Below the pieces are notes generated by a model that saw only the letters and a program-made list of their open reading frames with translations, made no database searches and was not told the DNA's origin. Below are positions 6,230 to 35,941 of a DNA stretch of 64,000 bases, one piece after another; the first letter of the stretch is position 1, and each line of letters begins with the position of its first letter. The position numbers were made by a program, and so were the translations under genes. The stretch covers positions 62,001-126,000 of the forward strand of contig NZ_JRAA01000001.1 in assembly GCF_000787395.1 (NCBI RefSeq), given 5' to 3'. The stretch comes from Solemya velum gill symbiont. GTDB lineage: Bacteria; Pseudomonadota; Gammaproteobacteria; Chromatiales; Chromatiaceae.

Positions 6230-7062
6230 TATGCCTGCTCTCCATTGACCTGGCTTGACAGCTCGATAGAGCGGTCACGTGCGGCAGTCAGTGCATCCTC
6301 GATGATCTGTTCCAGGCCGCTCTCATTGAAGACTGCAAGCGCTGCGGCCGTGGTTCCTCCGGGAGAGGTGACTTTTTCGCGCAGTACCGAGGGGTCCTCT
6401 GGATTCTCCAGTGCCATACGAGATGCACCAAGTGCCGTATGCAGTGTCAGCAGCTTCGCCGAGTTGTGATCCATGCCCATTTTTTCGGCTGCACTGATCA
6501 TGTGTTCCATGACCAGAAAAAAATAGGCGGGGCCACTGCCGGATACAGCAGTAACGCTGTCCATCATGGTTTCACTGTCAACCCACAAGGTCAGACCAAC
6601 CGCACGCATGATGGATTCAGCCAGGTTGCGCTGATCTTCATTTGTATTCGGGTTTGCATACAGGCCTGTCGTTCCTGTCTGCAGCATGGCTGGTGTGTTT
6701 GGCATGGTACGGATGATGGCAACGTCTTCACCGAGCCATTCTGCGAGGTGTTTGGTCTGGATGCCTGCAGCAATGGAGATGATCAGGGGTTTGCTGTTGC
6801 CGACAGCTCCAGCGATGTCTCGCGCAATTTGTGGCAACGCCTGTGGTTTAACTGCGAGAACAACGACGTCAGCCTCGAGTACGGCTGTCCGGTTTTCGTC
6901 CAATGTTCTGATTGCGCAGCACTCCTTGATGAAATCAGTACGTTTATGATCCGGATCTGATGCAATGATGTTGTCAGCAGGATAGCCATCTTCGACCAGT
7001 CCCTTGATCAGGGCTGCTGCCATGTTGCCGGCGCCGATAAAAGCGATTGTCCGGTTTGTCAT
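6229..7062 (-). CDS. proC: Pyrroline-5-carboxylate reductase
   Basis: 277 residues. It reduces 1-pyrroline-5-carboxylate to L-proline with NAD(P)H, the last step of proline synthesis. The N-terminal Rossmann motif is IAFIGAGNMAAALIKGL, followed by VLAVKPQALPQI, RTMPNTPAMLQTGTTGLY, the VTAVSGSGPAYFFL signature and the C-terminal VTSPGGTTAAAL. It stands in the conserved yggS-proC-yggT cluster, 49 bases after yggS. Confidence 0.97.
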   Translation of the reverse strand: MTNRTIAFIGAGNMAAALIKGLVEDGYPADNIIASDPDHKRTDFIKECCAIRTLDENRTAVLEADVVVLAVKPQALPQIARDIAGAVGNSKPLIISIAAGIQTKHLAEWLGEDVAIIRTMPNTPAMLQTGTTGLYANPNTNEDQRNLAESIMRAVGLTLWVDSETMMDSVTAVSGSGPAYFFLVMEHMISAAEKMGMDHNSAKLLTLHTALGASRMALENPEDPSVLREKVTSPGGTTAAALAVFNESGLEQIIEDALTAARDRSIELSSQVNGEQA

Positions 7063-7111
7063 AGGGTTTACCTCTCAGATTAAACGTTCGTTTCTTGCTG
7101 TAATAATTCTA

Positions 7112-7795
7112 TCAGTCACGTTGACCGAAAATTGCTGTTCCAACACGCACGATGGTTGCGCCGTGGCGGATTGCCTCTTCCATGTCATTCGACATGCCCA
7201 TCGAGAGAGTGTCGAGATTCAATCCTTTACTGTTGAGTTGCTCAAAAAGCTGCTGCATCTGCGAGAATATACCGGCCTGCTGCTGCAGGTTATTCGTTGG
7301 AGCCGGTAGTGCCATTAGGCCCCTCAGCTGTACATTTGGCAGCCTGCTGATCTCTGTAGCGATTGATTCGGTCTCCTGAATGTCAATGCCACCTTTGGAT
7401 TCCTCGTTGCTGATATTGATCTGCAGGCAGATATTCAGTGGATTTAAATCAGCAGGTCGCTGACTGCTGAGCCTGTGCGCCTGCCTGAGTGAATCAACTC
7501 CATGCACCCAGTCAAAATTTTCTGCAATCAGGCGAGTCTTGTTGCTCTGGATCGAGCCGATGTAGTGCCATTCGATAGGAAGATCATGCAGTGCGGTGAT
7601 CTTCTCAATGGCCTCCTGCACATAGTTTTCACCGAATCGACGCTGACCGGCGTCCCAGGCCTCGCGGATCGTTCCGACAGGCTTCTTTTTACTCACTGCC
7701 AGTAGCGTGATTTCATCAGGTGAGCGACCACACCTGAGAGCAGTTGTGTGTATTCTCTCGTTGATTGTCGAAAGGTTGTCAGAAATTCGTGTCAT
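7112..7795 (-). CDS. yggS: PLP homeostasis protein YggS/PipY
   Basis: 227 residues. Members bind pyridoxal 5'-phosphate without known catalysis and keep the PLP and amino-acid pools balanced. The PLP lysine lies in LLAVSKKKP, and GENYVQEAIEK, WHYIGSIQSNK, GLMALPAP and SMGMSNDMEEAIRHGATIVRVGTAIFG are all present. It is the first gene of yggS-proC-yggT-yggU and is divergent from pilT across a 148-base gap that must hold both promoters. Confidence 0.95.
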   Translation of the reverse strand: MTRISDNLSTINERIHTTALRCGRSPDEITLLAVSKKKPVGTIREAWDAGQRRFGENYVQEAIEKITALHDLPIEWHYIGSIQSNKTRLIAENFDWVHGVDSLRQAHRLSSQRPADLNPLNICLQINISNEESKGGIDIQETESIATEISRLPNVQLRGLMALPAPTNNLQQQAGIFSQMQQLFEQLNSKGLNLDTLSMGMSNDMEEAIRHGATIVRVGTAIFGQRD

Positions 7796-7943
7796 TATCT
7801 GTAATAAACATTTGAATTAAAACTCTTCATCTGGCATTTTACTACTCAAGAGTATTGCTTACATACCTAGTGATGCAATGATTGAGCAGGATGTATTTAC
7901 CGGTTTCAGGGTAACCTGAATTATTTTGACTATAAAGGAAAAA

Positions 7944-8984
7944 ATGGCGAACATGGATATCACAGATCTTCTCACTTTTTCAGTCAAGCAGGGTGCATCC
8001 GATGTGCATATCGCTGCCGGGCTTCCACCGATGATCCGTGTCGACGGAGATATCCGACGCATCAACCTCCCTGCGCTTGAGCAGGAAGAGGCGCAGGAAA
8101 TGATCATGGATATCATGAACGACCGGCAGCGTCGTGAGTATGAAGAGCATCTTCAGATAGACTTCTCTTTCGACCTTCCCAAGGTCTCACGATTCCGTGT
8201 CAACGCATTTACCCAGGATCGTGGAAGCAGTGCAGTTTTTCGTCTGATTCCATCCGAGATACTGACACTTGAAGACCTCAACTGCCCTGATACTTTCAAG
8301 GATATCGTTAATGTGCCAAGCGGCCTTGTGCTAGTGACCGGGGTAACCGGTTCGGGAAAATCCACAACACTTGCAGCATTGGTTGACTATATCAACAAGG
8401 AAAGATACGAGCACATACTGACTGTCGAAGATCCGATTGAATTTGTTCACGAGAGCAAGAAGTGCCTGATCAACCAGCGAGAGGTGCACTCACACGTTTC
8501 CAGTTTTGCCGATGCTCTGCGCGCGGCACTGCGTGAGGATCCCGACGTGATACTCGTCGGCGAATTGCGTGATCTCGAGACGATCCGCCTGGCACTGACT
8601 GCAGCCGAAACCGGTCACCTGGTATTCGGCACGCTGCATACCAGTTCGGCTGCCAAGACGATTGACCGTGTTATTGACGTTTTTCCGGCAGCAGAAAAAG
8701 AGATGGTACGCTCAATGCTGTCAGAATCGTTGCGTTCAGTCATTTCACAAACCTTGCTGAAGAAAAAAGAGGGTGGCCGTACTGCTGCCTGGGAAATTAT
8801 GATTGCAACCTCTGCGATTCGTAACCTGATTCGAGAAAACAAGGTCCCACAGATGTATTCGGCAATTCAGACAGGGCAGGCGCTGGGAATGCAGACAATG
8901 GATCAGCATCTGAAAAAACTGGTTGAGAGCGGGGTCATCAGCAGCGATGTGGCCAGTACCCGAATGATGCACGCTGAAGACTAA
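7944..8984 (+). CDS. pilT: Type IV pilus retraction ATPase PilT
   Basis: 346 residues. PilT is the hexameric cytoplasmic ATPase that depolymerises the pilus for twitching. Visible are SVKQGASDVHIAAGLPPMIR, the Walker A GVTGSGKSTTLAAL, the Asp box VEDPIEFVH, Walker B ILVGELRDLETI, the His box TAAETGHLVFGTLHTSSAAKTIDR and the AIRNLIRENK plus C-terminal motifs. I chose ATG 7944 behind AAAGGA; ATG 7953 (MDITDLL) is a possible alternative. pilU follows after 15 bases. Confidence 0.96.
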   Translation: MANMDITDLLTFSVKQGASDVHIAAGLPPMIRVDGDIRRINLPALEQEEAQEMIMDIMNDRQRREYEEHLQIDFSFDLPKVSRFRVNAFTQDRGSSAVFRLIPSEILTLEDLNCPDTFKDIVNVPSGLVLVTGVTGSGKSTTLAALVDYINKERYEHILTVEDPIEFVHESKKCLINQREVHSHVSSFADALRAALREDPDVILVGELRDLETIRLALTAAETGHLVFGTLHTSSAAKTIDRVIDVFPAAEKEMVRSMLSESLRSVISQTLLKKKEGGRTAAWEIMIATSAIRNLIRENKVPQMYSAIQTGQALGMQTMDQHLKKLVESGVISSDVASTRMMHAED

Positions 8985-8999
8985 CCGAGAGGCACACTG

Positions 9000-10157
9000 A
9001 TGGATATTACACCACTATTAGAACTTGCAGTGAAACGACAGGCGTCGGACGTTTTCATTGCTGTTGGCCGTCCACCGTCACTGAAAATCAATGACAACAT
9101 TGAGCCAGTTGGTCAGAAAGAGATTACGATTAGTCAGTCGGAGGCGATTGTCAGTAATATCCTGCCTGATTATCTGAAAGACCGTTTTTTTACCGAACGT
9201 GAGGCAAACTTTGCCCATTTCGTTGAAGGTGTCGGACGTTTTCGTGTCAGTGCTTTTTTCCAGATGGACATGGTGTCCATTGTATTTCGTTATATCCAGG
9301 CTGATATTCCGAGGTTTGAGGAGCTGGAACTGCCGGATACCCTCAAGGAAATCTCCATGATCCAGCGTGGGCTGGTGCTGTGTGTAGGTGCTACCGGTAC
9401 TGGTAAATCCACCACCCTTGCGGCGATGGTCGGGTATCGCAATCACAACACCCATGGACATATACTGACAGTTGAGGATCCGGTTGAGTATATCCATACG
9501 CACGATGGCTGTATCGTCAACCAGCGCGAGGTTGGCGTTGATACCGAGTCATTCGAAATTGGCCTGAAAAACAGCCTGCGACAGGCACCTGATGTCATCC
9601 TGATCGGTGAGATTCGTTCGCGAGAAGTTATGCAGCATGCCATCACCTTTGCAGAGACGGGACATCTGTGTATCGCTACACTTCACGCAAATAATGCCAA
9701 CCAGGCACTTGACCGTATTATTAACTTCTTCCCCGAAGAGCGCCGCAACCAGTTGTTGCTGGACCTCTCTTTCAACTTGCACGCGATTATCGGTCAGCAA
9801 CTGATTCCAAGAATCGACGGTGGTGAACGCATGGCCGTTTGTGTTGAACTGCTGTTGAGAACACCCTACATGATGGATCTTATTCGTAATGGTGAAATCC
9901 ATGACGTTAAGGACCTGATGAAGCGCTCGGAAGAGCAGGGCATGGTCACATTCGACAAATCGCTGGTAAACCTCTACCAGAAAGGCACAATCAGTTACGA
10001 GGATGCCTTACGTTTTGCTGACTCATCCAACGAGGTGAGGCTGATGATCAAACTTTCAGCTGAAGCGAGTGGCAACCCCCTTGAATCGGGTGCTGATGAA
10101 CAGTTCCAGCTTGAAAAATCAGATGACGATGAGGAAGATGAGGGCTTTTTAAAGTAA
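9000..10157 (+). CDS. pilU: PilT-paralogue ATPase PilU
   Basis: 385 residues. PilU assists PilT-dependent pilus retraction. It has the same order of motifs: VKRQASDVFIAVGRPPSLK, Walker A GATGTGKSTTLAAMVG, VEDPVEYIHTH, ILIGEIRSREVMQHAI, ETGHLCIATLHANNANQALDR. The acidic C-terminal tail (SDDDEEDEGF) is characteristic of PilU rather than PilT. It is the second gene of the pilTU operon and is closed by a strong terminator. Confidence 0.95.
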   Translation: MDITPLLELAVKRQASDVFIAVGRPPSLKINDNIEPVGQKEITISQSEAIVSNILPDYLKDRFFTEREANFAHFVEGVGRFRVSAFFQMDMVSIVFRYIQADIPRFEELELPDTLKEISMIQRGLVLCVGATGTGKSTTLAAMVGYRNHNTHGHILTVEDPVEYIHTHDGCIVNQREVGVDTESFEIGLKNSLRQAPDVILIGEIRSREVMQHAITFAETGHLCIATLHANNANQALDRIINFFPEERRNQLLLDLSFNLHAIIGQQLIPRIDGGERMAVCVELLLRTPYMMDLIRNGEIHDVKDLMKRSEEQGMVTFDKSLVNLYQKGTISYEDALRFADSSNEVRLMIKLSAEASGNPLESGADEQFQLEKSDDDEEDEGFLK

Positions 10158-10200
10158 GCAGGAGAGTGATCTCATCCAGTATTGAGATTGAATAAAGCAA

Positions 10201-10232
10201 GACCGGAGCAGAGTTGCTCCGGTCTTTTTTTT
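10201..10232 (+). terminator. Rho-independent terminator after pilU
   Basis: Ten-base-pair hairpin GACCGGAGCA-GAGT-TGCTCCGGTC followed by eight T, about 45 bases past the pilU stop and directly at the stop of the convergent pyrK-like gene. Confidence 0.9.
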
Positions 10233-11107
10233 CAGGATTCAGAGAATACCAGGCGTCCGTCAAACACCGGGCCGTCGACACAGACACGTTTCATTTGTAC
10301 GCCACTGTCGCTTTCGACAGGTACAACACACCCGGCGCAGCCGCCTACTGCACACGCCATGAACTCTTCCAGTGATGTCTGAACATTGACATCGAATTCA
10401 CGCGCCAGGTCGACCACGGCCTGCAGCATTGGATGGGGTCCGCAGCTGTAGATAGTCGTATCGTCCAGTTCCTCTCTTGTCCGTTGTGCGAGATAGTTGC
10501 GAGCCACATCGGTCACATAGCCTTGCTGGCACCCGGCATAACCTTGCAGGCTGGCGAGTCTCGATGCAATGCCCCAGTCGTCCAATAGCGGCATTGCCGC
10601 GATGACTCCCTCGTCCATGCCGTCAACGATATGTTGTGAGGGTTTGGGAGTGAAAGGGAATGGAACCTCGGATCCAAGTACTGCAAAACAACTATGGCCA
10701 TCAAGATGACGCAGTTCATCAGCAAGAAAAATCATCGGTGGCATGCCGACGCCTCCGCCAATCAGGAGTGAACGCCCCGATTCGATTTCAAAACGGTTAC
10801 CGATGGGCCCCATGATGCTGATGTTTTCACCTGCCTGTCGCTGCGAAAGCAGTGACGTGCCCTGGCCGACGCGTTTATAAAGGAAATCTACCCACCCCTC
10901 TTTAACCGAGACACGCATGATGGAGATGGGGCGTCTCAGCGGCTGCAGTGGATCGACCTGCAGGTGGGAAAACTGCCCGGGCTTGGCTTCAGCTGCACAC
11001 TTTGGTGCGTGTACACGCATAACGAACTGCTCACCTTCATACTCTTCGTGCGACAGGATGAGTGCATCTTCAACGAAGATGGTATCGCGATGATTTTTCA
11101 TTTGCAT
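10232..11107 (-). CDS. Dihydroorotate dehydrogenase electron-transfer subunit-like (PyrK family)
   Basis: 291 residues (or 289 from the second ATG). Ferredoxin-reductase fold: FAD-binding RRPISIMRV, NAD-binding LLIGGGVGMPPMIFLADEL and SCGPHPMLQ, then a C-terminal [2Fe-2S] site CAVGGCAGC plus a Cys twelve to thirteen residues on, as in PyrK. In class 1B enzymes PyrK passes electrons from PyrD to NAD+. No pyrD lies nearby, so the partner is unknown; the protein could serve another oxidoreductase. It follows pyrC' by 11 bases in the pyr cluster, which supports a pyrimidine link. Confidence 0.8.
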   Translation of the reverse strand: MQMKNHRDTIFVEDALILSHEEYEGEQFVMRVHAPKCAAEAKPGQFSHLQVDPLQPLRRPISIMRVSVKEGWVDFLYKRVGQGTSLLSQRQAGENISIMGPIGNRFEIESGRSLLIGGGVGMPPMIFLADELRHLDGHSCFAVLGSEVPFPFTPKPSQHIVDGMDEGVIAAMPLLDDWGIASRLASLQGYAGCQQGYVTDVARNYLAQRTREELDDTTIYSCGPHPMLQAVVDLAREFDVNVQTSLEEFMACAVGGCAGCVVPVESDSGVQMKRVCVDGPVFDGRLVFSES

Positions 11108-29963: not shown

Positions 29964-30037
29964 GCCTAGATAACACCTGGATTATTATTAATGTACAAAG
30001 ATAATCATACTGGAATGCTTTTGATAATCCTACAGCA

Positions 30038-30090
30038 GTGAATGGTGCGCCTGACAAGGTGAGGTGAACCCTTGGTCCGGTAGATCAAGG
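30038..30090 (-). pseudogene. 3' remnant of a tRNA-Arg-like gene
   Basis: On the minus strand CAAGG...CCTTG can form a T-stem, followed by TCAGGCGC-A-CCA and ATTCACT. The last 20 bases nearly repeat the 3' end of the intact tRNA-Arg and its flank (30149-30170). No matching 5' half precedes it directly, so it is a broken tRNA copy or a duplicated attachment core. Confidence 0.5.
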
Positions 30091-30154: not shown

Positions 30155-30231
30155 TGGCGCGCCTGACAGGAGTCGAACCTGTGACCTTCGCCTTCGGAGG
30201 GCGACACTCTATCCAGCTGAGCTACAGGCGC
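30155..30231 (-). tRNA. tRNA-Arg (anticodon CCG)
   Basis: 77 bases including encoded CCA. Acceptor stem GCGCCTG/CAGGCGC with G discriminator, D arm GCTCAGCTGGATAGAGT, anticodon stem TCGCC/GGCGA with loop CTCCGAA giving anticodon CCG, and T arm with GTTCGACTC. Reads CGG codons. It is flanked on both sides by fragments resembling parts of itself. Confidence 0.96.
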
Positions 30232-30345: not shown

Positions 30346-30375
30346 TTGTCGCTCACCCAGCTGAGCTACAGGTGC
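30346..30375 (-). pseudogene. 5' remnant of a tRNA gene
   Basis: On the minus strand GCACCTGTA is followed by a complete D arm GCTCAGCTGGGTGAGC (30366-30351), nearly the same as the 5' part of the intact tRNA-Arg (GCGCCTGTAGCTCAGCTGG). After the D arm the sequence runs into the palindromic element and no anticodon arm is present. Confidence 0.6.
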
Positions 30376-30562: not shown

Positions 30563-33049
30563 ATGAGACGGATTTCAACTATTGCATCCCCAATTACATT
30601 GATCATGTTGCTTCAGCTTACGGGCTGCGGCGATAGTATTCAGAGTTCAACCGCTCAGCAGTCCAGTCAGGCAGTGATTTCTACCACGAATGAACAGTCT
30701 GGACAGCAAACTTCTGTAGAAGAAATTCCATCCGTTGATGAAAAACCGGTTATCTCTCCTTCGACTCCTGTTCAGATCAGTCTGCCCGGATGGTCTCGTG
30801 AGTCTGATAACAAGAAAGCCCGACCGAAAGAAAACAGGGACGAATGGTCCGAGTGGCGTTCTATGGCCGCCGGTTTTGTCGCACGCAAGCGCAAGATGCC
30901 TGAGACAGATACCCAACAGGTACTCAAGCGTTATGCCTCGCGTGATGAACTCAAGAAGAACCTCAAAAAAGGCCGGTCTGGGAAACAGGCACACCTGGTT
31001 AAAACCAGTGAAGCTGGACTTTACAAGCTCACGGTTCCGATGCTGGCTGACCTCATGGGCAAGCGAGAGTCCAAGGTGCGGAAGCTGTTGTCAAAGGGTA
31101 AGTATGTCAAGCTGGGATACCAGGGTGATAAAGCCCAATGGCATTACGATGCCGCTTCCGATGCACTCTATTTTGTAGCTCAGCCGTACAAATCACTTTT
31201 TACCACTGATAATGCATTTCAGTTGTCCCAGCAAGGCAACGGCAAGTTCGCCATGCCGCAGAGTGGACGTAAAGCAGGCAAACCGTCACTAGCGGTGGCG
31301 CCTGGAACTTTCACCCACACCGAGCTCATCGAACAGGACAACTTCAGTTATCCGCACCTGTTCAAAACAGCGGATGCAAACTACTGGGTGTGGAAGCTGG
31401 TTCGTGACATTGCTCCTTTCGAGGAGTCCATTCAAGTCACATCGCCAGCTGAGTCAGGTGTTGCCAGGATGCGCATCTATCTCTCAGGTGCATCAGATAT
31501 TCAGGGGGGCGATGATCACAGGGTGACAGCCACTTTCGTTTCTGATGGCATTGAAGTGGAAAAATTCGTCACTTGGGACGGGTTTGAAAAGAAAATCATC
31601 GAGCTGGAAATTGACCAGGCAGCATTGGCATCCGGTAATGGCAAGTTACGCCTCACCACTGAGCTTAGTGGTTCATGGGAGCTTCTGGACAGAATCGAGA
31701 TCGATTATCAGCGAGAAATGCATGCTGACTCCAACCAGTTATGGATGAAAGGACTTGAAGCGGGTACGCATACTGTTCGGGGGCTGAGCTCAGCGAACGT
31801 ATATCTTGTCGAATTACCTACAGATCAACCTGTATGGCGAAGCGATCTGCTGGTGACGCCTGAAGGTGACGGCAACTACTCAGCCACTTTCAAGCTAACA
31901 GCTACTTCAGACGTACTTGTATCAGCGGATACTGCTATCAACGAACCCCTGGTTACTGCTGATGTTCCATCAAATCTGAAGAGCCGCAACAAGCGTGCTA
32001 ATTACCTGATCATTGCGCCTCGTGGACTGACAGATACCGCCAACACACTGAAAGCGTATCGCCAAGGGACGCACGGAAAAGTGAAAATTGTCTGGCTGCA
32101 GGATATCTATGACGAGTTCTCATTCGGACGTGCCGATCCGCAGGCAATCAGAGACTTTCTCAAGTACACCAAAGAACGCTGGAGAAAAGCGCCAGAGTTC
32201 GTTGCGCTGATCGGTCGTGGTACTGCTGACCATACAAACATCCAGGGTAAGCTCGACAGTTGGGTGCCTCTGCAGATGGCCGTTACACCCTGGGGATTGG
32301 CTTCTTCAGATGCGAGCTATTTTGATGTCGATGCAGATGGCGTCAATGATTTTTCTGCCGGTCGCATATCTGTCGTGACTGATGAAGAGGGTGTTGCTTA
32401 CGTCAACAAGGTGAAGAACTACGAATCTCTCGCGTTCGATGGGAATTGGATGCGCCGTGTTGTCCTGGCTGCCGATGATCCTGACAGTGCCGGTGACTTT
32501 CATGCTGATGTTGCGACTGCAGCTGCCCATGTCAGTCAGCTGGGTTATGACAGTGAGGCCTATTATTATCCAACGAATGATATCGGGGCGGTCCTGAGAG
32601 ACTCCACAACCTGGGAAAGCAGTGTGGTCGGCTACATGGGGCACGGTCTGACTGGCAGGCTGGACAAATTCCTGAAGAAAGAGGATGTAGCATCATTTGA
32701 CAACAGCAAGGGGCAGGCACTCTTCCTGCTGTTGACCTGTAGTGCTGGCAACAGCAACTACCCTGGCTACAAGTCACTCAGTGAAACGCTGGTATTTCCT
32801 GACCAGGCTGAACTTGATGCAAGCGGACGTTTCCTCAAGGGAGCGATCGCCTCGGTTGCACCAACCGGAAAATCACTGAATGCTGATGCCGGTGTACTGG
32901 CAACCGCATTTTACAATGCTGCACTTGCCGAGCACCGTTCTCTGGGTGATGCGGTGACCGTGATGCAGTCTCAGTCGGTTGGGCAGGTCAATGACTTCAT
33001 GCTCAACATCTACTGGCTGCTTGGTGATCCTGCACTGGTGCTGAATTAA
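30563..33049 (+). CDS. C25 (gingipain-type) cysteine peptidase, lipoprotein
   Basis: 828 residues from ATG 30563, preceded by GAGGT. A signal peptide ends in a lipobox (LLQLTGC), so the protein is probably membrane-anchored outside the cytoplasm. The N-terminal 450 residues are Lys-rich then beta-rich; the catalytic domain starts at about residue 480 (YLIIAPRGLTDTANTL), with DFSAGRISV, His694 in YMGHGLTG and Cys726 in LLTCSAGN as the likely dyad. C25 enzymes cut after Arg or Lys. No C-terminal sorting domain is visible. It lies 43 bases before the small peptide gene and in the same direction, suggesting it belongs to the peptide locus. Confidence 0.88.
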   Translation: MRRISTIASPITLIMLLQLTGCGDSIQSSTAQQSSQAVISTTNEQSGQQTSVEEIPSVDEKPVISPSTPVQISLPGWSRESDNKKARPKENRDEWSEWRSMAAGFVARKRKMPETDTQQVLKRYASRDELKKNLKKGRSGKQAHLVKTSEAGLYKLTVPMLADLMGKRESKVRKLLSKGKYVKLGYQGDKAQWHYDAASDALYFVAQPYKSLFTTDNAFQLSQQGNGKFAMPQSGRKAGKPSLAVAPGTFTHTELIEQDNFSYPHLFKTADANYWVWKLVRDIAPFEESIQVTSPAESGVARMRIYLSGASDIQGGDDHRVTATFVSDGIEVEKFVTWDGFEKKIIELEIDQAALASGNGKLRLTTELSGSWELLDRIEIDYQREMHADSNQLWMKGLEAGTHTVRGLSSANVYLVELPTDQPVWRSDLLVTPEGDGNYSATFKLTATSDVLVSADTAINEPLVTADVPSNLKSRNKRANYLIIAPRGLTDTANTLKAYRQGTHGKVKIVWLQDIYDEFSFGRADPQAIRDFLKYTKERWRKAPEFVALIGRGTADHTNIQGKLDSWVPLQMAVTPWGLASSDASYFDVDADGVNDFSAGRISVVTDEEGVAYVNKVKNYESLAFDGNWMRRVVLAADDPDSAGDFHADVATAAAHVSQLGYDSEAYYYPTNDIGAVLRDSTTWESSVVGYMGHGLTGRLDKFLKKEDVASFDNSKGQALFLLLTCSAGNSNYPGYKSLSETLVFPDQAELDASGRFLKGAIASVAPTGKSLNADAGVLATAFYNAALAEHRSLGDAVTVMQSQSVGQVNDFMLNIYWLLGDPALVLN

Positions 33050-33092
33050 TCGGTTTCCAACCGTATCAACGGGAAACTTAGAGATTGCATAT

Positions 33093-33293
33093 ATGACAAA
33101 TGATGAGAATAAAGCGAGTAACCAGGAAGGAACTGGCAAACCCGCATGGGAGGCACCTGTCGTTATTAGTGTCGAGGTGATGGAGGTGATGGCATCTTCA
33201 TGTGCATACGGTTCTGATCCCGAGTGTTCTTCACCACCTGCTACCTTGGGTAAAAACCAGGGTACCTGTACCTGCACAACTTACGGAAGCTGA
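33093..33293 (+). CDS. Candidate RiPP precursor peptide (66 residues)
   Basis: Leader-like residues 1-36 are polar then hydrophobic and include KPAWEAPVV, a WxxP motif comparable with the YxxP recognition motif of lasso-peptide leaders. The C-terminal part begins at Cys37 and has four Cys (37, 45, 59, 61), many Ser, Thr and Gly, and ends in Ser66. The gene is followed at once by a kinase-like, a PqqD-like and a radical SAM gene, the usual surroundings of a modified peptide. I cannot match the core to a known product. Size, Cys content, position and WxxP motif support the call; the modification is unknown. Confidence 0.75.
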   Translation: MTNDENKASNQEGTGKPAWEAPVVISVEVMEVMASSCAYGSDPECSSPPATLGKNQGTCTCTTYGS

Positions 33294-33302
33294 TTGTTCG
33301 AA

Positions 33303-34187
33303 ATGATAGGGATTGGGCCGCTAGATCACCAGATTATTGGAGTAGACCAATCCATAAAGAGCCATATAAATGAGTCATATCAAGGGTTTATAGATAATAT
33401 ACCACCTTATTTATATGATAAATCACTGGTCATTTGTGAAGTCCGTAACTCGAAATGTCTTGATCTACCGAAGATGCGGCAATTGGCTAGCGGCGGATGG
33501 TGCTTTTGGAATCCTCTTGGCAAGATAGAAACAATCGATGCTCTCGATTTCATAGTTGCTCTCTCTCCCGATAGACGTCACAACAGGCTCTACATTCAGG
33601 CAACTGAACTTCTCCTTAACCGAATCGTTATCGAAAACTATCTGCGTATTGCAACTGCTCATCTCCTGTTGAAGCAGGGTGGCTGCCTGCTGCACAGCGG
33701 TGGATTTATTCATGATGGGCTCGCGTGGTTGTTCGTGGGTATTTCTGGCGCAGGTAAGACGACGTTGACAAAAATAGCTCACGAGGGCGGGGCAACAATT
33801 CTCAGTGATGATATCAACGTCCTGTTTCGTGATACGGAAGGTCAATTTCTTGCGACTCCAGTGCCTTTTGCCGGTGAGTTCGGACGACAGCACAACATGA
33901 AACGCGATGCCAGTGGAGGTATTCCTGTCGGAGGTGTTTACCGAATTGAGAAGTCTGACAGGCTCAGTATCAAACCACTAGCAACTGTTTCACAGCATGT
34001 CACCCTGCTGTCAAATATGCCTTTCGTCAATAATATCCCTGAATTTACAGACGATGTTGACACTGTCGTCAGCGCCCTGGCCGACAGGCATCCCCTGCAA
34101 ACATTGCAATTCAGTAAAGAGATGCAGTTTGATGAACTCGCCGATGGACTGGAAAAATCAAGAATGGAGCAACAGCATGCAGCATGA
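33303..34187 (+). CDS. HprK-related kinase of the peptide locus
   Basis: 294 residues from ATG 33303 (a TTG at 33294 is an alternative). The C-terminal half has an HPr kinase-type nucleotide site: LLHSGGFI, the P-loop FVGISGAGKTT (Lys152) and LSDDINVLF. No HPr or PTS protein is nearby. Relatives occur with PqqD-like proteins, and in lasso-peptide clusters such as paeninodin an HprK-like kinase phosphorylates the precursor's C-terminal Ser; here the precursor also ends in Ser. The first 150 bases are clearly more AT-rich than the neighbours. It overlaps the PqqD-like gene by 11 bases. Confidence 0.82.
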   Translation: MIGIGPLDHQIIGVDQSIKSHINESYQGFIDNIPPYLYDKSLVICEVRNSKCLDLPKMRQLASGGWCFWNPLGKIETIDALDFIVALSPDRRHNRLYIQATELLLNRIVIENYLRIATAHLLLKQGGCLLHSGGFIHDGLAWLFVGISGAGKTTLTKIAHEGGATILSDDINVLFRDTEGQFLATPVPFAGEFGRQHNMKRDASGGIPVGGVYRIEKSDRLSIKPLATVSQHVTLLSNMPFVNNIPEFTDDVDTVVSALADRHPLQTLQFSKEMQFDELADGLEKSRMEQQHAA

Positions 34188-34464
34188 AACATTAAACATC
34201 AGCAGCCGGGCACGATTTCGCTCAGTCGGGTCGGAAGGTGTAGTGGTACAAGTGGAGCGCGGCGAGGTGATGGTTGTCAATGGAGTTGGCCTGCGTGTGC
34301 TTGAACTCGTCAAGGAGAGTGGTTCACGTAGTGCGATTATTCAGCAACTCTCTCGTGAATATGCAACAGGCAGTGCCAACGTGGCACAGCAGGTTGATGA
34401 TTATATTGAGGAACTCTACGCATGGGGTGTTCTCGAACAGCCTGAAACAGGTTCCGGGGAGTAG
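34177..34464 (+). CDS. PqqD-like peptide recognition protein (RRE)
   Basis: 95 residues from ATG 34177, inside the 3' end of the kinase gene; a longer upstream frame is only a shadow. The PqqD fold is visible: beta strands around GVVVQVERGEVMVVNGVGLRVLELV followed by the helical IIQQLSREY and VAQQVDDYIEELYAWGVLE. Such domains bind the leader of a precursor peptide and hand it to the modifying enzyme. It lies five bases before the radical SAM gene, matching the PqqD-PqqE pairing. Confidence 0.88.
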   Translation: MQHETLNISSRARFRSVGSEGVVVQVERGEVMVVNGVGLRVLELVKESGSRSAIIQQLSREYATGSANVAQQVDDYIEELYAWGVLEQPETGSGE

Positions 34465-34469
34465 TCAAC

Positions 34470-35495
34470 ATGTACAAGTCGGTGGTCGCCAATATTCGTA
34501 CCAACAGGCTGTTGCACGAAGTGATGCTCGAATTGACATTCGACTGCAATCTTGATTGTTTTTACTGCTACAACGACAAGAATGCCAATGGCAAACCACT
34601 GTCGCTCGATCAGTACCAAGTGCTTTTCGATGATCTCGAGAGGATGCAGGTGCTCGGTATCTCCCTGACTGGTGGAGAGCCGATGGCGCACCCGCATTTT
34701 TTTGAAATCGGCAAGATGGCTCGGGAGCGTGGATTCGTGGTACGCATCAAGTCGAATGGGCATGCCTTGCGGGCAAAGGCTGTCGACCGGATCAAGCAGG
34801 AGATGGATCCGCTGAACATCGAAATGAGTCTGCATGGAGCGACGCCAGAAACTCACGACAGGCAAACCAGGGTCAAGGGAAGTTTTGAACGACTCATCTC
34901 CAATATCCGATATATGAAGTCAATTGGGTTGCGTACCAGCCTGATTACCACACCCACTGCCTGGAACTGGCACGAATTCGAACAGATGATAGATCTTGCC
35001 GAGGAACTTGGTGTGCGTCTCTCCATGCAGGGTCCGGTGGCGCCGCGTGACAATGGTGACAATGAACCATTGGAAATTCAGCCAACCGATGAGCAATGGG
35101 AAGCGGTCAATGCCATTGCACGCAGACGGCAACTTGGCAGTCGCAATCAACGCGAAACACTCAAAGCACCTAGTGCACAGACAGCACTGAACTACAGTGC
35201 CAACAAGGTGCCCAAGAATTGTGGCTCCGGCCTGGATTCCATTGTTATCGATCCATTCGGTGAAGTGTTAACTTGCCTGCACCTGCGTTGGTCAGGTGGC
35301 AACCTGCATGTTCAGGATATCGATACCATCTGGAATCATTCACCGGTTTTTGGAAACGCTTCAGATATGACTGAACGTGCATTTGCCCAATTTGGCGATC
35401 AACAGCCATCACTGTTTGGTGCTCAAACCTTCTGTCCCGCAGTACAGATCAACAGCGGTTGCGGTGGCTGTGGCGGAAAATGCGGGGGAGGTTAA
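34470..35495 (+). CDS. Radical SAM/SPASM peptide-modifying enzyme
   Basis: 341 residues. Radical SAM cluster CNLDCFYC (Cys26, 30, 33), SAM-binding LTGGEPMAHP, then MSLHGATPETHD. The C-terminal SPASM region is recognisable as CGSGLDSIVIDPFGEVLTC (C-x12-G-x4-C) followed by FC, then a tail CGGCGGKCGGG that gives further cluster ligands. PqqE-type enzymes of this group make C-C, thioether or other crosslinks on peptides. Position beside a PqqD-like protein and a Cys-rich peptide points to the 66-residue peptide as substrate. Bond type is unknown. Confidence 0.9.
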   Translation: MYKSVVANIRTNRLLHEVMLELTFDCNLDCFYCYNDKNANGKPLSLDQYQVLFDDLERMQVLGISLTGGEPMAHPHFFEIGKMARERGFVVRIKSNGHALRAKAVDRIKQEMDPLNIEMSLHGATPETHDRQTRVKGSFERLISNIRYMKSIGLRTSLITTPTAWNWHEFEQMIDLAEELGVRLSMQGPVAPRDNGDNEPLEIQPTDEQWEAVNAIARRRQLGSRNQRETLKAPSAQTALNYSANKVPKNCGSGLDSIVIDPFGEVLTCLHLRWSGGNLHVQDIDTIWNHSPVFGNASDMTERAFAQFGDQQPSLFGAQTFCPAVQINSGCGGCGGKCGGG

Positions 35496-35500
35496 TTTCG

Positions 35501-35941
35501 GTGAACCGGTTTCAGCAGCAAGTTGTTATTGATCTTCTTGCCAGTTCGCAAGGGGACGAGGGGTTCACTCTCTCTGTGAGTGGCAGTTGCATGGAGCCAA
35601 TCATCAGGGATGGAGACCAGTTGGAAGTAGTCCGCTGCCCCCGTTACTATCCGGGTGACTTGCTGGTGATTGCCAATGCCGAAGGGAAGCTTGTTTCCCA
35701 CAGGTTTCTCGGCTGGATTCCAGGGGTAAACGGCGCGCGCGTAATGACCAGGGCTGACAACCGGCACAAAATAGATCCATTAACAGACGCGCACAGAGTG
35801 CTCGGCAGGGTAGTGAGTGTGGCTGGTTTCGATTTATCCATTCCGTTAAGCCACAGGCTTTTCTCTATGCTTCGCTATGGCTTCTATTCTGTGCAGCTAC
35901 CTGCTAGAAAACTACTGTCGTTCACCTCTTTGCAGGGATAA
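35501..35941 (+). CDS. S24/S26-type peptidase with Cys at the nucleophile position
   Basis: 146 residues from GTG 35501, behind GGGGAGG with normal spacing; it begins six bases after the radical SAM stop. The signal-peptidase-like core is FTLSVSGSCMEPIIRDGDQLEV, PGDLLVIAN and KLVSHRF, then GRVVSV. In the family the residue before Met-x-Pro is the catalytic Ser; here it is Cys30. His67 in SHRF matches the His of ER-type signal peptidases. A hydrophobic C-terminal stretch exists but no clear N-terminal anchor. It probably trims the modified peptide, as an inference from position. Confidence 0.75.
   Translation: MNRFQQQVVIDLLASSQGDEGFTLSVSGSCMEPIIRDGDQLEVVRCPRYYPGDLLVIANAEGKLVSHRFLGWIPGVNGARVMTRADNRHKIDPLTDAHRVLGRVVSVAGFDLSIPLSHRLFSMLRYGFYSVQLPARKLLSFTSLQG

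Follow-up and report, generated by a model that had tools for sequence, protein, structure and literature searches.

A candidate radical SAM/kinase RiPP cassette with a C25 peptidase, associated with C-terminally tagged surface proteins, in the Solemya velum gill symbiont

Ribosomally synthesized and post-translationally modified peptides (RiPPs) are usually interpreted as antibiotics, signals or cofactors. In lasso peptide clusters the precursor's C-terminal Ser is phosphorylated by HprK-like kinases such as PadeK, and in one such cluster a nucleotidyltransferase-like protein accounts for the addition of hexose to it (PMC9266682). In the type IX secretion system (T9SS), the C25 peptidase PorU is proposed to cleave off a C-terminal domain and attach the newly formed end to an amine; without anionic lipopolysaccharide (A-LPS), PorU uses free amines of peptides as acceptors (PMC4560394). 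Here we describe a six-gene cassette that shares features with both systems, at positions 30,563 to 35,941 of a window (the whole stretch of DNA analysed, 64,000 nucleotides) from the S. velum gill symbiont. The host assembly amounts to 2.70 Mb in 10 contigs, and the published symbiont genome is 2.70 Mb with 51% GC (PMC4287430). We give about even chances to the proposal that the cassette product is a RiPP dedicated to a C25-based system for processing C-terminally tagged surface proteins. The cassette, its protease and the tagged surface proteins together point to an undescribed peptide-linked surface-protein processing system.

The six genes are as follows:

30563..33049, + strand: C25-family cysteine peptidase, 828 aa, lipoprotein (Pfam Peptidase_C25, 1e-53)
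33093..33293, + strand: RiPP precursor peptide, 66 aa (22 homologous precursors)
33303..34187, + strand: HprK/PEPCK-fold kinase, 294 aa (AlphaFold2 fold; ScmC, 5.6e-7)
34177..34464, + strand: PqqD-type RiPP recognition element (RRE), 95 aa (Pfam PqqD, 5.3e-10)
34470..35495, + strand: radical S-adenosylmethionine (SAM) enzyme with one predicted twitch-like auxiliary cluster (Pfam Radical_SAM, 1.6e-23)
35501..35941, + strand: Cys-type S26-like peptidase, GTG start (Pfam Peptidase_S24, 1.1e-5; Sec11-like, 1.3e-6)

Gene calls, Pfam, NCBIfam and a fold model confirm six co-directional genes for these protein types, as originally predicted from the sequence of the window, and no transporter is found among them, again as predicted. 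The intergenic gaps are 43 nt between the C25 and peptide genes and 5 nt both before and after the radical SAM gene. The peptide-kinase gap is 9 nt counted from the ATG, or zero if an in-frame TTG at 33294 is used, and the kinase and PqqD genes overlap by 11 nt. Judging from this tight packing, the six genes likely form one transcript. A promoter scan of the locus gave nothing exceeding shuffled sequence, an Rfam search found no RNA element, and the terminator-like matches at the locus (9 observed versus 5.1 expected) were not used as evidence.

The gene set was found again in more than 20 genomes, and the cassette is therefore a conserved system rather than a chance cluster. Among 195 genomes of the same order, a search with the radical SAM protein matched 16, with at least 230 bits in 15 of them. 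A kinase search added five cassette genomes from other families of the class, and a genome-contig scan revealed additional cassettes in Halioglobus and in metagenome-assembled genomes (MAGs) labelled Thermoanaerobaculaceae and Verrucomicrobiae. Several gammaproteobacterial families have the C25, peptide, kinase, PqqD and radical SAM genes together, and so do MAGs assigned by label to Acidobacteriota and Verrucomicrobia. Of the relatives found, the gill symbiont of Solemya elarraichensis (L025) is the closest; its radical SAM protein is 95% identical to that of the window. Across loci the C25, kinase, PqqD, radical SAM and S26 genes are clustered in varying order and strand, and PqqD and radical SAM accompany the precursor in almost every intact locus. 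The linkage of the six genes is thus conserved, a point on which the original prediction is supported. The peptide is present in 12 of 15 radical SAM genomes; in two of the three exceptions the locus sits at a contig end, and G124 is a real exception that also has no C25. When 398 genomes sampled evenly from the phylum were searched with the kinase profile, no other true member was detected; the matches all belonged to different HprK-like families and scored about 45 bits, and the system is sparse. One kinase match (G490, 5.5e-7) was treated as false, there being neither peptide nor C25 in that genome.

The original prediction assigned C25 to the peptide cluster as its protease. This reading is incomplete, as C25 also tracks secreted proteins that share a C-terminal domain, hereafter the client domain. 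The client domain consists of about 150 residues at the exact C-terminus of secreted LamG/GEVED/DUF11 proteins. The structure model of a copy from the window's genome (pLDDT 91.5) has a helical lead-in and a fibronectin type III (FnIII)-like sandwich, with its best structural match at Z 11.0 and a root-mean-square deviation (rmsd) of 2.1 over 96 residues. In four loci the domain ends secreted proteins adjoining C25 (L026, L028, L029, L030), and in six it lies inside long proteins, upstream of a fused C25 module (L033, L034, L042, L043, L046, L048). The window's genome carries four copies, none of them in the window, which end LamG, GEVED and DUF6923 proteins. One of these four client genes (L130; G000:C3:770000-789500, 6887-10940) looks split by an IS30-like transposase open reading frame, with the LamG/F5_F8C part on one side and the part for the C-terminal domain on the other.

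The phylogenetic profile of the client domain follows that of the cassette. In the order sample it is present in 11 of 195 genomes, all 11 of which have the cassette radical SAM, precursor and C25, and in none of the 180 genomes without the cassette radical SAM (Fisher 5e-15, uncorrected for relatedness). At the genus level, 4 of the 7 genera that have the radical SAM also have the domain, against 0 of the 49 that lack it (1e-4). These P values are descriptive only, since the sampled genomes are related. Only in G173 does a precursor occur without the domain; this MAG is 84% complete, and C25 was likewise not found in it. In a second sample of 369 genomes from the class, all six cassette genomes have the domain. 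Two extra domain matches were obtained there, one in G387, where a cassette-type S26 gene lies beside the domain at a contig end, and a weak one in G425.

The C25 protein has a lipoprotein signal (MRRISTIASPITLIMLLQLTGC) with a lipobox, and its catalytic His694 and Cys726 are invariant in 15 of 15 homologues. In most loci, G064 among them, the precursor gene immediately follows C25 in the same orientation, at distances from overlap to 174 nt. The C25s of four genomes without the cassette (G003, G016, G139, G155) have no phmmer match to the cassette C25, which by sequence places them in a different subgroup. The exception is G129, a genome without the cassette whose C25 matches at 3.7e-15. There, in a distant cluster (L119; G129:C232, 4055-8590), C25 is directly followed by a lasso-type precursor with a YQPPTLTPHGALVAVT leader, and an Asn-synthase-like cyclase and an HprK-like kinase are also present, which suggests that the pairing of C25 with a RiPP is not confined to a single peptide chemistry.

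In the PDB, the C25 protein matches PorU alone (5.4e-6). One explanation would be that C25 is a sortase that swaps the client C-terminal domain for the RiPP as a covalent anchor, with the Lys amine of the peptide as acceptor, much as PorU does with A-LPS. The C25 fold, the C-terminal position of the client domain, the single Lys per core and the acceptance of peptide amines by PorU in the absence of A-LPS (PMC4560394) are all consistent with this. However, the sortase Arg722 of PorU, about 32 residues after the Cys, aligns with Gly769, which is invariant in 15 cassette C25s, the NCBIfam T9SS_sortase (PorU) model NF033707 scores 154.4 against a cut-off of 420, and no cleavage site was identified. 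With Arg722 replaced by an invariant Gly, sortase transfer is rated well below plain proteolysis, and a covalent anchor appears improbable.

The window precursor has a leader (..KPAWEAPVVISVEVMEVMASS) and the core CAYGSDPECSSPPATLGKNQGTCTCTTYGS. What had been called a possible precursor is a true one: 22 homologous precursors of 56-71 aa share a leader near an RRE and a modifying enzyme. Their common pattern is [KR]x[YW]xxPxxLSxExLExxAxxC (a YxxP-type leader), after which come a short core and a second Cys, with Ser at the C-terminus. The residues P, E, E, A, C and C are invariant among 17 aligned precursors, and 21 of the 22 end in Ser. Between the two Cys there is one Lys in 20 of 22 precursors and two in L115, and the core is almost free of other basic residues, while its sequence and length differ widely. 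For three species pairs the core protein is unchanged (dN = 0) at dS of 0.39-1.27; the precursor open reading frame is therefore translated and constrained. A second PqqD-precursor pair with core CSGPTAKADVITCSGGPIGS was observed together with a client-domain protein in L116 (G251:C27, 1-3257), away from the main cassette of that genome.

The locus could also make an ordinary secreted RiPP, a bacteriocin or signal, for which C25 would be the extracellular maturation protease, perhaps cutting at Lys, and the domain proteins unrelated passengers. The RiPP tool set is complete, gingipain-family C25 enzymes cleave after Lys or Arg, nearly every core has one Lys, and in L119 the gene right after C25 encodes a lasso-type precursor, again with a single Lys in its core. 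Against these points, the conserved gene set has neither a transporter nor an immunity gene, and the client domain is present in all sampled cassette genomes that keep C25; the window's genome has it unlinked to the locus, and other genomes have it fused to C25. We consider this alternative unlikely.

Comparison of the two Solemya symbionts shows a different pattern of change, with leader DNA 90% identical and core DNA only 47%. The kinase N-terminal third (dS 1.5) and S26 (dS 1.8-2.1) are likewise more divergent than radical SAM, PqqD and the C25 tail (0.5-0.6). The divergent tracts are 33204-33600 (core plus kinase N-terminal third) and 35501-35941 (S26). The simplest reading is that these are matched pieces replaced by recombination, and from their joint divergence core recognition may reside in the kinase N-terminus and S26. 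The fast-diverging core, along with the tight C25-precursor gene pair, could be attributed to a peptide that regulates or inhibits the co-transcribed C25 protease. Yet C25 does not co-diverge (92% in the available tail) and the core is fully conserved in other species pairs, making this quite improbable.

The PqqD of the cassette is the only one in the host genome. The radical SAM enzyme has the Cys set C26/C30/C33, and C251, C269 and C322 are the only invariant auxiliary Cys among 23 homologues. On this pattern the enzyme is assigned to the twitch-like type with a single auxiliary cluster; the earlier SPASM label, which implies seven Cys, does not hold, and the Pfam SPASM match spans 46 of 67 positions. 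Its PDB matches are SkfB (1.7e-9), PqqE (5e-9) and 5wgg (4.9e-7). Taken together with the leader and the RRE, the radical SAM gene supports an RRE-dependent RiPP cluster. As its profile is nearest to mycofactocin and heme maturases, a peptide-derived redox cofactor of the PQQ or mycofactocin kind was considered. No oxidoreductase family recurs in the cassette neighbourhoods, the core varies widely in sequence and length, and maturase scores are far under cut-offs, all of which argues that such a cofactor is very improbable indeed. For the S26 protein, C30-M31, H67-R68 and D86 are invariant in 15 homologues, with Cys30 and His67 in place of the active-site Ser and its Lys partner, in line with the original Cys-type assignment. 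No N-terminal membrane helix was seen in this protein. The active site and the missing membrane segment fit a cytosolic leader peptidase.

The kinase falls under every Pfam cut-off. Its homologue alignment contains the P-loop GISGAGKTT and an ILSDD motif, and its best NCBIfam matches are to the ScmC/HprK_rel families. The AlphaFold2 model (pLDDT 85.6) has the PEPCK/HPr-kinase fold, matching PEPCK with a Foldseek E-value of 7.5e-7 (Z 13.3, rmsd 5.0 over 246 residues) and HPr kinase 1knx with 3.5e-5. Phosphorylation of the C-terminal Ser of the precursor by this kinase is the best-supported chemical prediction for the cassette. The suggestion of a perhaps phosphorylated peptide is thus plausible, and the Ser conservation and lasso-kinase precedent narrow it to the C-terminal Ser.

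From the observed gene content, conservation, active-site residues, precursor family, co-occurrence and fusions, we infer the chemical steps, the export and the interaction of peptide, C25 and client as follows. PqqD would bind the YxxP leader and pass the precursor to the radical SAM enzyme, which would modify the two-Cys core by a thioether or other cross-link, perhaps with the single Lys. The HprK-like kinase would phosphorylate the C-terminal Ser and the Cys-type S26 peptidase would cut off the leader, so that both synthesis and trimming would take place in the cytoplasm. The mature peptide would reach the envelope by a route not encoded in the locus, and would there meet C25, which, like the clients, is presumably exported via its signal sequence. 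The lipoprotein C25 would then recognise LamG/GEVED/DUF11 clients by their FnIII-like C-terminal domain, acting together with the peptide, whose role could be that of substrate, activator or attached group. Of the crosslinked, perhaps phosphorylated, exported peptide first envisaged, the RiPP locus stands and phosphorylation is plausible, while export is a supposition set against a conserved set without a transporter.

Several observations weigh against a peptide dedicated to C25 and its clients. The order-sample counts come from related genomes of four genera and are not independent, and the Acidobacteriota and Verrucomicrobia loci sit on MAG contigs whose binning is taken as labelled. C25 was not found in G124 and G174, both of which retain the radical SAM gene. 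The L026 precursor ends in Ala and has no Lys between its Cys, and the lasso core of L119, in a cluster with an HprK-like kinase, has no C-terminal Ser. No conserved transporter is found in the cassette neighbourhoods, which leaves the meeting of the peptide with an extracytoplasmic C25 unexplained, and contact of C25 with peptide or client is drawn from genomic association. More specifically, it is a tentative possibility that the phosphorylated radical-SAM RiPP functions, whether as cofactor, activator or covalent anchor, within a new C-terminal-domain processing system outside Bacteroidota. That C25 would in this case act on surface lectin-like proteins with an FnIII-like C-terminal domain is put forward with the same reserve.

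If the dedicated-RiPP proposal is true, it would add a new RiPP role, tied to a protease and C-terminally tagged surface proteins by linkage, fusion and phylogenetic profile. It would also offer a candidate pathway by which an uncultured animal symbiont builds lectin-like surface proteins that face its host.

Some arrangements around the cassettes are recorded here. A tRNA-Arg(CCG) lies upstream of the window cassette (30155-30231), and short partial repeats of both its ends are found at 30032-30056 and 30357-30375, possibly left over from an integration event at this site. G064 has C25, precursor, kinase and two large secreted domain-bearing proteins on one contig and PqqD and radical SAM on another (L036; G064:C18, 8899-10204), apart from the remaining cassette and after a response-regulator/DUF4388 gene. 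L046 has a tandem pair of PqqD-like genes ahead of the radical SAM gene (10086-10364), with a weaker second copy also in L047. In L026 (7143-14549), a second, divergent cassette adjoins the first, with kinase, PqqD, radical SAM and an NTP_transf_5 gene replacing S26, together with a large protein that runs off the end of the locus; this protein carries the client domain but does not match C25 in Pfam. For this second cluster, as for L035 and L036, no precursor was found. A defence-system reading was dropped, PADLOC having given only generic viperin matches to the radical SAM core.

The locus had been described as not belonging to a characterised system, and indeed no cassette protein exceeds any NCBIfam equivalog cut-off. 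No paper uniting C25 with RiPP genes was found in the open-access literature, subscription papers being mostly outside the search. The likeness to SynChlorMet lies in a kinase nearest to ScmC (5.8e-11 in L028) and in the joint presence of PqqD and radical SAM, but the cassette has one radical SAM gene instead of two, as well as C25, S26 and its own precursor family. The window proteins stay below the SynChlorMet cut-offs (ScmC 29.2 versus 125, ScmE 63.6 versus 400, ScmF 80.8 versus 400), as do the scores overall (kinase 29-42 versus 125, radical SAM 64-91 versus 400), and below those of HPr-rel-A (HprK_rel_A 17.6 versus 200, PqqD_rel_X 23.0 versus 35). SkfB, CteB and PqqE resemble the cassette maturase in the radical SAM core, the RRE partner and a Cys-containing precursor; the cassette enzyme differs in its low overall similarity, its three invariant auxiliary Cys and its kinase and C25 partners, and it lacks the two auxiliary clusters of the SPASM maturases that define sactipeptides and ranthipeptides.

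With T9SS, the cassette shares a C25 cysteine peptidase that keeps the catalytic His/Cys and secreted proteins with a common C-terminal beta-sandwich domain. It differs in the Arg722 to Gly change and in a client domain that is FnIII-like with an alpha-helical lead-in, and its RiPP genes have no counterpart in T9SS. Six client proteins gave no match to any NCBIfam T9SS tail model, and the VIA-align structural neighbours of the domain are FnIII domains with no T9SS tail, an absence that in itself proves nothing. Paeninodin/pseudomycoidin-type lasso clusters (PadeK/PsmK, PsmN) share the PqqD-type RRE, YxxP leader, HprK-like kinase and C-terminal Ser, and the NTP_transf_5 gene present in one homologous cassette (L026) resembles PsmN of the pseudomycoidin-type clusters. 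Neither an Asn-synthase-like lasso cyclase nor a B2 protease is found among the six genes or in the next downstream gene; the window locus has a radical SAM enzyme instead, plus the Cys-type S26 and C25. The RiPP part is a radical SAM/kinase variation on a known RiPP type, and the novel claim is its link to C-terminally tagged surface proteins.

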